Shown here in pieces: positions 15,321 through 58,150 of a stretch of DNA of 59,092 bases. The first letter of the stretch is position 1; each line of letters starts with the position of its first letter. The position numbers and the translations under genes were made by a program. The notes under the pieces were generated by a model. It saw only the letters and a program-made list of their open reading frames with translations, searched no databases and was not told where the DNA came from. Source of the DNA: Pilasporangium apinafurcum (lineage: Eukaryota > Oomycota > Peronosporomycetes > Pythiales > Pythiaceae); the NCBI GenBank assembly GCA_001600495.1, contig BCKE01000087.1, positions 42,975 through 102,066 of the forward strand, read 5' to 3'.

Positions 15321-15442
15321 TCGTTATGGAACAAAGTTCACATTGATCGTTCGTTAGCGTGATCCAATCAACTACGCACTTGTGTTCGCCTCTTCATTTT
15401 CAGACGTTTGATAGTTTTATAGGACCAGTAGTTTTATTCTTT

Positions 15443-16490
15443 TACTGGCGATTACCAGAATACAGCCTAACCGTGCGGACGCATTTGAAAAGTTGGTTGA
15501 CTTTCCATTTCAAAAGTCTGTTGACCCCCCACTATCCGCGGATACTTTTCCTACACTCTATTCTCTTCCTACATTCCTTTCTCCCCGTCGTAACTCTGGC
15601 GGTCTTGGAAGTCGATGTAGGAGACATATAGCAAGTGTAAGGATGTCCTTTGACCCATTCACATCTCGCTCCCACGTGATTCTGCACTCGCTGTTGTTGC
15701 AGCAGAGAACCTGGCGGGAAAATATGACGCTTGCGCTTCCATCAGCCTTTTTCGTCCGAAATGGCGTCTCCTCAAGCTGCTGGTAGCACTCGTCGATCTG
15801 CAGCACGGTTGTACGCTTTGTCAGCTCACGTGTGAATCGCTTCGCGGGTCCATACACGTGACCCTTGGCGAAGTCCTGTTGACTCCAGTCACCGAGGCCA
15901 ATGCAAACCTGAGGACTTGGTATGGGTACCAACCACTTTGCCATATGTGCCAACGTCTTCCGACTAAATCTAGACTGAAGAAAACGCCATTTACAAAATG
16001 GATGCGACGCACAAAAGCTCACCAAGAAGTCGAAATGCCTCCACACGTACTTGATGTTTGTCATATACTGCTCATACGACGCTGTCTTGAACGAAGGCAT
16101 CTCCCGGATAATCCTTCCGTACTCATGTTCTTTCTTCTTCAAGTTCTCGTGCCAGAATGTACACTTGTTCATTCCGGCGAGATACCTGTACTTTCGCGTA
16201 GATATCTGTTGAACATTGTATCGCTGGTTACTGGCTCGCTTGCATCGAATACCGCGCTTGTGTCTCTTCTTCCTTTTCTTCTTCCGTTTCTTTCGTCGTT
16301 CCTGCTTCGACTCCTTCACTTGACTTTGCTTGAGTATCCTTCCATTGCATCTCGCTTTCTTCTTTTTCCACAACAACTTCTCGCACACGAATGGCAGTGT
16401 AGAGCGACCGCATACCAGGGTCGATCCCAACGACAGTATCGGAAACGTAATTATCAGGAGGTACCATCATGTCTTTGTCTTTCTCTTTAG
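15443..16490 (-). pseudogene. Fanzor1/TnpB-like RNA-guided nuclease remnant (family I, copy 1)
   Basis: Read on the minus strand. At 16,420-16,390 a frame gives VVGIDPGMRSLYTAI, the first RuvC motif with its Asp. A frame change near 16,340-16,390, in a Lys-rich segment, leads into a long frame ending at 15558: STRKYRYLAGMNKCTFWHEN, EMPSFKTASYEQYMTNIKYV, IGLGDWSQQ, a basic segment, QIDE (position of the alternative catalytic Glu in Fanzors) and SECRITWERDVNGSKDIL (third RuvC motif). These occur in the order of Fanzor1 proteins. Defects: one frameshift, and the first half of the zinc finger after IDE is largely missing. The N-terminal part is replaced by family II sequence. The element end is at about 15,443, defined by comparison with copies 2 and 3. 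Decayed and probably inactive. Confidence 0.75.
15444..15557 (-). ncRNA. Putative structured 3' end (guide-RNA scaffold candidate) of family I
   Basis: Directly 3' of the nuclease frame, this stretch is conserved in the three family I copies although it does not code. It ends in CTGGTAATCGCCA. A stem GCGGA/TCCGC (minus strand; plus 15535-15539 with 15475-15479) is kept in the other copies by compensatory or wobble changes. TnpB and Fanzor loci encode their guide RNA at this place. Transcription is not shown. Confidence 0.25.
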
Positions 16491-16493
16491 TGG

Positions 16494-17017
16494 GATGCTA
16501 CTGGAGGTGTTCATTCTTGAAAAAGATGTTTCTAGCAGCGTTGACATCTCTGTCAGTGAGGACACTCCAAGACTTTCTGATACCCAACATCTTGTTGAGA
16601 AGTTACTTCTGTTCCTTTGTTGGATACAACCGCACTTTCAAGATGCTGTTTGGAATTGGTTTATCTATCTTGCATCATTTGATCAGCGTGAACCACGATT
16701 TGGATAGCATGCTCTTTACATATTTATGCGAGGAGTCCGTACTCAAATCGATCTCGGACGATAACAGCAATCCTCGAGATCTGCTTTTTACATGCGATTT
16801 CTACCAATCTGGACAGTCCTGACTTGCTTTCCTTGAGACCGGAACCAATGTCGATCTCCTCTGGCGTCCACTGTCATTGACTTGCATCCTTTCTTGAAAA
16901 GAAGGATAGTGGAGAAAAGATGTCATCGCGGAGAATTGAAAACAAGTTTCTATCAATAGGGAGAAAAAAACACGTCAAAGTATATCCCACCGGTGGGAGA
17001 AATGGGGGAATAAAGGT
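16494..17017 (-). pseudogene. TnpB/Fanzor2-like element remnant (family II, copy A)
   Basis: On the minus strand the element begins with the family II 5' end: the palindrome at 16985-16998 (TCCCACCGGTGGGA) and a following block shared with the copy near 57.7 kb. It then shows ILKVRLYPTKEQK (about 16,650-16,610), the usual TnpB N-terminal motif, followed by a stop, then LTDRDVNAARNIFFKNEHL, the third RuvC motif, and another stop. Relative to the 58 kb copy about 15 bases are lost just before DRDVN, including a zinc-ribbon Cys. It runs directly into family I copy 1, so the two remnants form one composite of about 1.57 kb. Its outer edge is 150 bases before the dynein start codon. Confidence 0.65.
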
Positions 17018-17167
17018 TAACTTTTGCATTCGAAGGGTCGTATACAGGAAGGGCTGACGTCGGTTGGCTTGGTTGCTGATTCAACCACACTCCAAATCGA
17101 CGCAGGTCCAACACGAGTGATTGGAATTGCTTCTGCTGGTTTATGTGGCTTGAATCTAGCTTTGGCC

Positions 17168-36665: not shown

Positions 36666-36860
36666 CTGTCGTGGCGATTACCAGCATATGGGCTGAGCGG
36701 ATGCGTTTAAGAGATTGTTAGACTCTCCTGCTGTCCACAAATACTCTTCCTACACTCTATCCTCCTCTTTGTAACTCGAATGGTCGTGAAAGTCCATGTA
36801 GGAGACACATGGCGAGTGTAAGAATGTTCTTCGACTCCAAGCAGTATTCTCGCACTTAAC
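36666..36860 (-). pseudogene. Family I Fanzor-like 3' end (copy 3)
   Basis: On the minus strand the sequence aligns base by base to copies 1 and 2: a frame with SKNILTLAMCLLHGL, then the conserved non-coding 3' end with CTGGTAATCGCCA. About 15 bases coding the RDVNA of the third RuvC motif are deleted. The stem arms (plus 36697-36701 and 36734-36738) pair as GTGGA/TCCGC with one G-U in the minus-strand RNA. Opposite in orientation to copy 2. Confidence 0.65.
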
Positions 36861-37219
36861 TACTGTACAAGTGCAGGATGTATTGACAAAGTAAATGTTC
36901 ATTTAGCAGACATTTACGAACACATGCACAGGACAAAAGATATCGACGACAACGAACTAAAATCTAGCGGAGATGGATTGTCCGAGTCGGGTAGCGACTA
37001 ATCGTACTCAGACTGCGCACTAACAGTAACATTCATACACACATATAATGTCTCGTGGTAATTTCTGGTTGACAGAGAATTGTACATTGTCATGTGTGTA
37101 TGTGTCTTAGACTTGTCAGATCTTCTAGATTTGAGTGAGATATGGTAAACAGCCAGGCAAAAAGACTCATGGATGGTATCGTGCAGTGTAAATACATTCG
37201 ACCATGCCATCATAGCCCA

Positions 37220-37517
37220 CCAGTCACTTCACAAGAACAAGCTGTGCGTCGACCACACACACACTAACTCGATGAGCTAGGGCTCCCACCAGGTTCTCCA
37301 CTGCAACAATAGTGAGTACAGAATCGCATGGGAGCGATACGTGAATGCGTCGAAAAACATTCTTACGCTCGCCATGTGCCTCCTACATGGACTTCCAAGC
37401 CCACCAGAGTTACGGAAAGGAGAAACGATCGTAGAAAGAGTATATGTGGGCAGTAGGAAAGTCTAACAATCTCTCAAACACGTCCACTCAGTTCGTATGC
37501 TGGTAATCGCACGACAG
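37220..37517 (+). pseudogene. Family I Fanzor-like 3' part (copy 2)
   Basis: Plus-strand frames give FTRTSCA (the zinc-finger start, as in FRTS..C), then, after a stop and a frame change, VLHCNNSEYRIAWERYVNAS and KNILTLAMCLLHGLPSPPEL, homologous to copy 1. The catalytic Asp of ERDVN is Tyr (ERYVN), and one zinc ligand is Tyr. The conserved 3' end follows, with stem arms GTGGGC (37446-37451) and GTCCAC (37482-37487), ending near 37517. Confidence 0.7.
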
Positions 37518-43189: not shown

Positions 43190-43630
43190 ATTACCTACCA
43201 GCCAGTCTTCATTTCTCCTACCTCTAGGATGTACTTTGGACTGATTTTTAAAGCAAACAAACCCACATCGATAGAAGCAGAAACTTGTTTCCAATTCTCC
43301 GCAATGAGCTCTTTTCAGCGCCATTCTTCTTTTCAAGAATGGATGCGAAGCGATAGCGTCCAAGCAAAAAAGATTTTAAGTAAGGCGCCAAGAGAAATGC
43401 TCACGTGGTCTCACTATAAATCCAAGAAGCTACTGAAGTACAAGATGAAAAGAACTGGAGGACGCGTAATCAAGTGTGAGGAACACTATGTAACAAAGAC
43501 TTATTCTCAGAGTCCAGATGTCGAAGATGTCTACTCTGTGGCTGTCTAGTCTTAGCTAGCTTTTGCTAACCCAAACAAAAACAGGAGGTCCTCCCTGAGG
43601 TACTTTCGTATCTCATATGATCTCATGAAG
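43190..43630 (+). pseudogene. TnpB/Fanzor2-like element remnant (family II, copy B)
   Basis: It starts with the family II 5' block: palindrome variant TCCTACCTCTAGGA at 43216-43229, then the same order of bases as copies A, C and D. The frame at 43157-43549 reads into a true TnpB segment: KAPREMLTWSHYKSKKLLKY, then GGRVIKCEEHYVTKTYSQ, equivalent to the helix before the zinc ribbon and to the Glu/T-K-T-C-S motif (Cys replaced by Tyr). The zinc ribbon and DRDVN are deleted, and the frame joins the family 3' end (AGTCCAGATGTCG) and the GCTAGCTTTTG block. An internally deleted copy. Confidence 0.65.
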
Positions 43631-50843: not shown

Positions 50844-51549
50844 AAAACGATGACCATCAAGCTAAAACAATGCCAAAATGGAAGCGAATACTCATCTTTG
50901 ACTGCTAATTACTCGACAACCACTAGTTCGATTTGAACGCTGTTTGCTTTGTTCANCATTACAAATAAAAAACTATCCTATGCCAAAATATTATGTGCTA
51001 AAAGGCAGTTGCGGATTTTTTGAGTTTAGGAAAACAACTGAAAACTGGCACCGTTGGCTCGCGGATTGCTTGTTAATATGAAGGGTGTAATGGGTCTGAA
51101 AACGAACTTCTGCTAGGTACGGTTGTTCATTGATTGCGGTTATGTTCGAATTGGACACTCGAACATCATTCATTCATTTCGCTTTCTGGGCAGCTTTATT
51201 AAAACAATAACTCAGTTCCTAATCTTCCTCCGAAAGAGTAAGTCTCTTTCGGTTTTCCTCTTTCCTTTCCTCTTGATTGACGACGTCTGTCGCCAATCAA
51301 TTATGCTTCCTCACTGCACAACAGTGTACGCCAGTAAAAGGGTTATCCTTTTACACCTTAGGGTGGCTAGTGGATAGTTCGATCCTTACTTCATGGCTGA
51401 GGTTCTCGAACATTATTTTCCCTTCGGGGTACGGAGGGTGACATTCTCGTTGCCAGATGTAATAAACATCAGGATTACGATAGTTTCTACTTAACCTTTA
51501 TTGATCGAGGCCAAGCTCCACTGGTGGAAATAATGAGCAATAGAGGTTA
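50844..51549. other. Repeat-like region, possible solo LTR
   Basis: The stretch 51143-51412 begins TGTTCGA and ends TCGAACA (7-base inverted ends, 270 bases), as a Copia-type LTR would, but no convincing target duplication is seen. An 18-base perfect palindrome, ATAGAGGTTAACCTCTAT, is at 51540-51557. No gene. Confidence 0.3.
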
Positions 51550-51917
51550 ACCTCTATCCTCCATTTCTCCTACCTCTAGGATGCGCTTTGAACTGATTTT
51601 TAAAGCGAGCAAATTCATGTCGATAGAAACAGAAACTTGTTTCCAATTATTCTCAATGGGCTCTTTTCAGTGTCATTCTTCTTTTCAAGAACAAATGCAA
51701 GGTGATGACAGTGCATGCCCGAGAAGATCAAGTGCGTGGAAAATCAAAGCGATTGTCCAAAAAGTGTGGCGCGGTAGTATCAATGTGAAAGAAAGGCAGA
51801 CATCACACTAGAAACATCTTTCTCAAGAATGAAAACCTATCCGTTTGAACTCATCGAATCTAGGTGTCGGAGATGTCTACTCCGCGATTCTCTACTTTCG
51901 TATCTCATATGATCTCT
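51550..51917 (+). pseudogene. TnpB/Fanzor2-like element remnant (family II, copy C)
   Basis: Shares the 5' block (palindrome variant TCCTACCTCTAGGA at 51568-51581) and following bases with copy B. Remains of the 3' end of the nuclease frame are visible (bases coding RNIFLKNEN) followed by the common 3' end and a 23-base block TACTTTCGTATCTCATATGA (51895 onward) that is also in copy B. Zinc ribbon and RuvC Asp are deleted. Confidence 0.55.
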
Positions 51918-57669: not shown

Positions 57670-58150
57670 ACTATTTTTAACCTTTATTCCCCCACTTCTC
57701 CCACCGGTGGGATATACTTTGACGTGTTTTTTCTCCCTATCGATAGAAACCTGTTTCCAATTCTCCGCAATGAGCGTCATTCTTCTTTTCAAGAAAGAAT
57801 GCGAAGTGATGAGAATGCATGTCCGAGGAGATCGAATGCGTAGAGAATCAAAGTGACTGTCCAGAAAACATGGTACGATAGTATCGGTGCGAAAGGAAGG
57901 CAAGCATCATAGATACGACTGTAAGGAGCACTTTACAACAAAGACTTGTTCTCAATGTGGGAGAGTCAACCACGCAATGAAGTATCAGAAAGTCTTTCAG
58001 TGCTCTCACTGCAAGTTCATTCTCGATAGGGATGTCAATGCTGTGAGGAACATCTTTCTTGAGAATGAGCACCTACTCTCCTGGATTCATCGAGTCCAGG
58101 TGTTGGAGACGCCTACTCTGCAGTGTCTAGTCTAAGCTAGCTTTTGTTAG
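57670..58150 (+). pseudogene. TnpB/Fanzor2-like element remnant (family II, copy D) with intact zinc ribbon
   Basis: 5' end: TTTATTCCCCC block and palindrome TCCCACCGGTGGGA (57699-57712), as in copy A. The frame ending at 58135 codes KEHFTTKTCSQCGRVNHAMK, then FQCSHCKFILDRDVNAVRNI: both CxxC pairs of the zinc ribbon and the third RuvC motif are intact, unlike in other copies. The frame has no ATG at its beginning and lacks the first RuvC motif and N-terminal domain, so it cannot be an active nuclease. Near the 3' end CCTGGATTC-ATC-GAGTCCAGG (58080-58100) forms a 9-pair hairpin. The 3' block TAAGCTAGCTTTTG is shared with copy B. Confidence 0.7.

Follow-up and report, generated by a model that had tools for sequence, protein, structure and literature searches.

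The window analysed here, 59,092 nucleotides of contig BCKE01000087.1 from the oomycete Pilasporangium apinafurcum, includes on its minus strand (nucleotides 15442 to 17020) a 1,579-bp chimeric element that belongs to a repeated family, whose copies have sharp ends in common, and in which remnants of two Fanzor lineages are joined. The order of its parts is a left end also found in IS607-type elements, a serine recombinase remnant, the start and tail of a Fanzor2/TnpB gene, the RuvC half of a Fanzor1 gene, and a Fanzor1-type right end. Comparison with relatives of each part shows, at the level of sequence resemblance, that the left end, the recombinase remnant and the Fanzor2 remnant derive from an IS607-type element, and the right half and right end from a Fanzor1 element. 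Since the joined unit occurs at about 30 places with differing flanks, it can be considered one transposing unit rather than a local accident, and the element is probably a decayed, non-autonomous DNA transposon. The first-pass annotation of this DNA had described a composite of two elements at this locus; what was found is a multi-copy family whose ends come from two different elements.

Borders, copies and decay of the element

The ends at 15442 and 17020 were defined by copy alignment: the copies fetched match the window over this interval and the alignment ends there, within 3 bases of the limits proposed by the first-pass annotation. The genome searched was the one containing the window (36.5 Mb in 136 contigs). 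A DNA search with the 1,579-bp element produced at least 64 matches (40 of 756 candidates scored), and a search with the 302-amino acid right half produced at least 141 (130 of 707 candidates scored), including a second Fanzor1 family that is 38-45% identical. Both ends were located at 31 loci, the window counted. This number includes L059, L018 and L046, and omits 11 others: L001, L002, L004-L008 and L026, which overlap counted loci or the window; L047 and L056, which overlap other IS607 loci; and L003, a separate place, at which the L020 locus is duplicated in inverted orientation with identical flanks. Among the 31 loci compared a full 200-bp flank is common only to L075 and L076, and the flanks of L021, L023 and L025 match other elements in part.

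Divergence was measured among 27 copies, a set without L076, L073, L018 and L046 that was also used for the codon position and stop tests described below. The median is 12.4% (range 3.9-15.8%); transitions outnumber transversions by a median factor of 4.5, and changes affect 14-15% of CpG sites versus 9% of other C and G. In the same copies, C-to-T and G-to-A substitutions relative to the most common base occur about three times as often as A-to-G and T-to-C ones, and more often at CpG, which is the pattern expected of deamination of methylated DNA. The three minus-strand frames of the window copy show a broken gene, in which two in-frame stops precede the DPG block and the frame changes between DPG and STRKYRYLAG. 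As judged from these frames, the nuclease parts are dead in the window copy; for the copies read in general, this is also the best interpretation.

Other relics are present in the same window. A second IS607 relic is located on the plus strand at 57677-58117, with a left end 94% identical over 98 bp and a TnpB C-terminal piece 78% identical to that of L031; the window also gave a match to an IS607-like right end, and further fragments of an IS607 left end and of TnpB occur at 43279-43522 and 51547-51899 (plus strand). A first look at the whole genome with the TNB domain gave 852 candidates, of which 150 were scored and all 150 matched, a very high density of Fanzor/TnpB sequences.

The IS607-derived and Fanzor1-derived parts

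The left end (16891 to 17020, minus strand) matches that of IS607-type elements of the same genome, as seen in an alignment with L040, L043, L032, L034, L035, L037, L044 and L056. L040 and L034 have the full layout of left end, TnpA, TnpB and right end, in frames that are not all open. Nucleotides 16667 to 16957 (minus strand) include the remnant, with stops, of an IS607-type serine recombinase, TnpA, recognized by tblastn with residues 11-99 of the L040 TnpA at 53% identity. An open 49-amino acid piece of it (16727-16873, minus strand) has 33 of 42 residues identical to the L040 TnpA and matched the transpos_IS607 profile (NF033518) with an E value of 1.3e-5 and 24.8 bits, a score below the cut-off of 110 bits, which is set for the whole protein. 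The L040 recombinase itself matches the IS607 transposase family (E value 6.8e-15) and also solved serine recombinases. What the window retains is an IS607-type serine recombinase as a remnant only, and no intact recombinase was seen in the two upstream parts read, those of L040 and L043, in which TnpA has stops between the DNA-binding and catalytic parts. Gaps in the copy alignment show that the window copy is short of 121-157 bp at 16679 to 16684 (minus strand); this stretch is present in six of 10 distinct chimeric copies (L018, L020, L021, L023, L025 and L028) and absent in L022, L024, L026 and L027.

The Fanzor2 gene is reduced in the window to its first approximately 24 residues joined to its C-terminal tail, with the middle deleted. 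The N-terminal start (RLYPTKEQK..LLNKM.G; 16570 to 16641, minus strand), which carries one in-frame stop, aligns by tblastn to residues 1-24 of L031, and an open 34-amino acid piece at 16501 to 16602 (minus strand), recognized with the Fanzor2 HMM, fuses the end of this start to a tail that corresponds approximately to residues 348-380 of the 401 in L031. The TnpB N-terminal domain PF12323 scored 17.6 bits on the 23-amino acid open piece, below its cut-off of 21, and 28.1 bits, above it, in a genome search reading through the stop (C87:59550-59612); in Pfam searches of the open left pieces the TnpB matches were below threshold. The 23-amino acid start scored 12.8 bits with the Fanzor2 HMM, built from 53 relatives of L031 with the window left out, and none was listed for Fanzor1. 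The open TnpB of L031 has as its best PDB match mimivirus L79 (9b0l, E value 2.8e-24), which we take to be the ISvMimi Fanzor2. The left pieces have, in summary, Fanzor2 as their best profile, Fanzor2/TnpB proteins as PDB relatives through L031, and an IS607 context. L045 and L042 are short relatives consisting of TnpB fragments and an IS607-like right end, with no Fanzor1 visible.

The C-terminal half of a Fanzor1 gene occupies nucleotides 15561 to 16466 (minus strand), with its DPG motif in the neighbouring frame to the rest, and is 43% identical to the 681-amino acid Fanzor1 of L009. In the window copy the RuvC site and C4 zinc finger are not intact in one frame, and a 27-bp deletion relative to copy L061 breaks the first cysteine pair of the finger. 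The right half alone had no match in Pfam, and the 302-amino acid window piece had no related match in PDB; it was therefore assigned through same-genome relatives. Its best profile is Fanzor1, and the PDB relatives reached through L009 are Fanzor1 as well, the best being those of Spizellomyces (SpuFz1, E value 2.5e-9) and Guillardia (GtFz1, 3.6e-5). The Fanzor1 profile was built from seven relatives with the window left out, namely L009 and L010, found by similarity to the window, and five relatives of L009, and the Fanzor1 identity of this set is based on the PDB matches and the named relatives of L009. Four of the six relatives found for L009 are named, and these are oomycete; the named relatives of both nucleases taken together are mostly proteins of Nothophytophthora, Globisporangium and Phytophthora. 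L009 (2673-4715, minus strand; G000:C59:249172-251214) is an open frame with the DPG, GDWS, cysteine-finger and RDVNA motifs, and possibly encodes a working Fanzor1.

The right end (15442 to 15560, minus strand), terminating in TA(A), resembles the right ends of the stand-alone Fanzor1 elements L019 and L017 and, by eye, L078. This Fanzor1-type end, found where an IS607 right end would stand in a standard member, makes the element an IS607-derived chimera. Stand-alone Fanzor1 elements of the same kind are L019, L077, L078 and the one at 36680-37504 of the window (plus strand), a short derivative that consists of a leader, the last approximately 50 codons, and the right end, with an inverted right end at the left; the right end likewise recurs inverted at the left side of L078 and, only partly preserved, of L077. 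Another Fanzor1 family, L010-L017, is approximately 2.58 kb long, has sharp ends and copies 93-95% identical, and showed no transposase in the frames listed for three copies; one of its copies, in L017, lies within an older Fanzor1 element, in its right end.

All the motifs quoted in the first-pass annotation were found on the minus strand in the order claimed: RLYPTKEQ (16609-16632), RDVNAARN (16528-16551), DPG (16414-16422), STRKYRYLAG (16173-16202), IGLGDWS (15882-15902), QIDE (15789-15800) and ERDVN (15657-15671). The relationship to TnpB and Fanzor that it drew from them is borne out by profile matches, and its inventory is completed by the recombinase remnant, which it had missed. Its proposal that a family I remnant had been joined to a family II remnant holds as to the joining of two lineages, as the profiles separate the right half (263.4 bits with the Fanzor1 HMM versus 5.5 with Fanzor2) from the left tail (28.1 bits with Fanzor2 versus 4.1 with Fanzor1), and needs to be reversed as to order, with Fanzor2 coming first and Fanzor1 second.

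Deletion forms and proposed movement of the unit

Three deletion forms were recognized, those of the window, L018 and L046, which agree in their ends and in the order of their parts. The window form is the commonest among the copies read, L018 retains more of Fanzor1 and nearly no Fanzor2, and L046 has the Fanzor2 tail and approximately 230 bp of other sequence, followed by the leader and the end of the Fanzor1 gene. Matching coordinates and strands suggest that the L046 form may occur at five more places (C6:668k, C35:68k, C1:565k, C1:576k and C12:184k). The ends and order common to the three forms suggest, most simply, that a single ancestor containing recombinase, Fanzor2 and Fanzor1 gave rise to them by deletion, although TnpA, a full Fanzor2 and a full Fanzor1 were found together in no locus read. 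We tentatively propose, as a possibility somewhat short of an even chance, that the genome once held a complete IS607 transposon with both Fanzor2 and Fanzor1, whose recombinase adopted the Fanzor1 right end and so moved the chimeric frame to dozens of sites.

Nearly every copy has a TA at each of its borders. Among 30 copies (the set without L076, whose right flank is that of L075), the left T is present in 29 and the A in 28, and the right T in 29 and the A in 27. At loci with IS607 parts the left end starts with TTA in seven of eight, and L040, which has the full layout, starts with TTC; GGTTA closes eight of the 15 IS607 right ends listed, exactly the eight that are at least 90% identical to the query. 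The presence of TA at both ends of nearly all copies and at most IS607 ends read leads us to propose, as a best guess from these sequences, that an IS607 recombinase may have moved the unit in trans, the exchange taking place at TA. A Fanzor1 element would have been situated just downstream of tnpB within an IS607 element; deletions would have taken away the IS607 right end together with the left terminal repeat of Fanzor1; the Fanzor1 right end, lying next to a TA, would have become a functional new right end; and the IS607 serine recombinase of other elements would have mobilized the unit in trans, cutting it out and inserting it by exchange at the shared TA dinucleotide. According to the available portions of two reports, IS607 exchange takes place at a matching dinucleotide without target duplication (PMC6188088, PMC10711439), and in the cases studied the dinucleotide is GG (first of these). 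Several observations stand against this proposal: the right end of the unit is foreign to IS607; the dinucleotide is TA and not GG; L040 begins with TTC; L046 has its extra DNA; and the TnpA genes of L040 and L043 are interrupted by stops. None of the flanks was found unoccupied elsewhere among the loci compared, and without such an empty site a TA exchange is indistinguishable from a 2-bp TA duplication.

Movement by a transposase of the stand-alone Fanzor1 elements, which bear terminal inverted repeats, with the IS607 left end tolerated as a partner, would agree with the fact that the right end of the unit is the one these elements own and carry in inverted copy at their left side. We consider it unlikely, as no inverted right-end repeat is visible at the left end of the unit in the aligned copies, and the dinucleotide after the last CAG, TA in the unit, varies among stand-alone right ends, being TT in L078 and at window 36680-37504 and TA in L017, with L019 too diverged to be placed. 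The dense Fanzor/TnpB elements of this genome do produce chance neighbours, and two relics could have met at this locus only, nested or adjacent, to give an immobile composite; the recurrence of identical ends at the 31 loci between different flanks, with an internal junction that is identical across the aligned copies, makes this highly improbable. Segmental duplication is or may be the case for the pairs L020/L003 and L075/L076, and the remaining loci have no shared flank.

Less likely than movement by a Fanzor1-element transposase is that the unit multiplied as a chimeric nuclease gene, with the start and tail of Fanzor2 in frame with the RuvC half of Fanzor1, and assisted its own spread by RNA-guided cut-and-copy. 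The Fanzor2 start and the RuvC-I aspartate could be located in 24 of the same 30 copies, are in one frame in 14 of these 24, and have an open stretch between them in nine of the 24, as such a gene would have. Against it, the stop deficit is uninformative, the codon positions are near expectation and the right end has no pair covariation. The fused frame has 74 stops versus 121 simulated; deficits of similar size were found in three of five wrong frames with L061 and L025 as references and in four of five with L028, and on this ground the deficit was rejected as a sign of selection. At the first, second and third codon positions the changes amount to 0.97, 0.86 and 1.04 of expectation, and the dead TnpA piece is also low at the second position (1.13/0.76/1.16). 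Neither the stop counts nor the codon positions of the copies compared support selection on the fused frame. A structured RNA (reRNA or omega RNA) at the right end was not supported either, as judged by the lack of covariation, the weak consensus fold and the lack of an Rfam match. Folding z values of five right ends against shuffles were -1.7 (window), -2.1 (L061), 0.2, -0.7 and -0.7, a slight excess of folding in the first two and none in the other three; the consensus fold of the alignment, without L076 and L059 (whose right end is damaged), amounts to -3 kcal/mol; in three helices picked by eye from single-sequence folds, no covariation above shuffles was found in that alignment (paired cells 89.1% versus 89.6% shuffled); and Rfam had no match at the right end up to an E value of 0.1. 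The recombinase of IS607 elements acting in trans remains our preferred explanation.

Relation to known Fanzor-bearing elements

In the available portions of Bao and Jurka (2013; PMC3627910), IS607-type elements are the only ones described with Fanzor2, and Fanzor1 is described in Mariner, Helitron, Sola, IS4 and MuDr elements. Both kinds are listed there for three Phytophthora species, so that the occurrence of both lineages in oomycete genomes was already known. Fanzor1 in IS607 transposons was sought as an intermediate in a 2023 NAR study, according to which none seemed to be carried by them (PMC10711439), and the word IS607 is absent from the accessible text of a 2023 Nature paper (PMC10432273). 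A published report of Fanzor1 and Fanzor2 sharing one mobile unit was not found among the titles and abstract beginnings searched. The unit bears on the route of Fanzor1 into many transposon families while Fanzor2 is mainly in IS607: as a multi-copy family that links the left end and recombinase of an IS607 element to both nucleases, it shows that the two lineages can come to occupy one mobile unit within one genome. The many copies, together with relatives of both parents, provide a concrete case for asking which transposase recognizes which end.

Eukaryotic IS607-type elements with Fanzor2, such as ISvMimi_1, are, as far as the available text of PMC3627910 describes them, like the unit in left end, recombinase remnant, and Fanzor2 start and tail, with no long target duplication apparent; the unit differs from them by having a Fanzor1 right half and right end and a gutted Fanzor2. 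Oomycete Fanzor1 elements, such as PUl-1 and PUl-4 of Pythium ultimum, found in Mariner (same source, in part) and represented in this genome by relatives L009, L010-L017 and L019, are alike in the Fanzor1 RuvC half and right end, whereas the unit has an IS607 left end and recombinase remnant instead of their left terminal repeat. Fanzor2*, that is, Fanzor2 in non-IS607 transposons as described in the accessible text of PMC10711439, is likewise a Fanzor lineage that switched transposon partner; the switch here is the opposite, of Fanzor1 into an IS607-derived unit. The Sola2-Fanzor1 chimeric families of slime moulds, according to the available portions of PMC3627910, also have a shared 5' half with the transposase and a different 3' half with Fanzor1, but they combine a Sola2 transposase with terminal inverted repeats, while the unit described here combines a serine recombinase with unlike ends.
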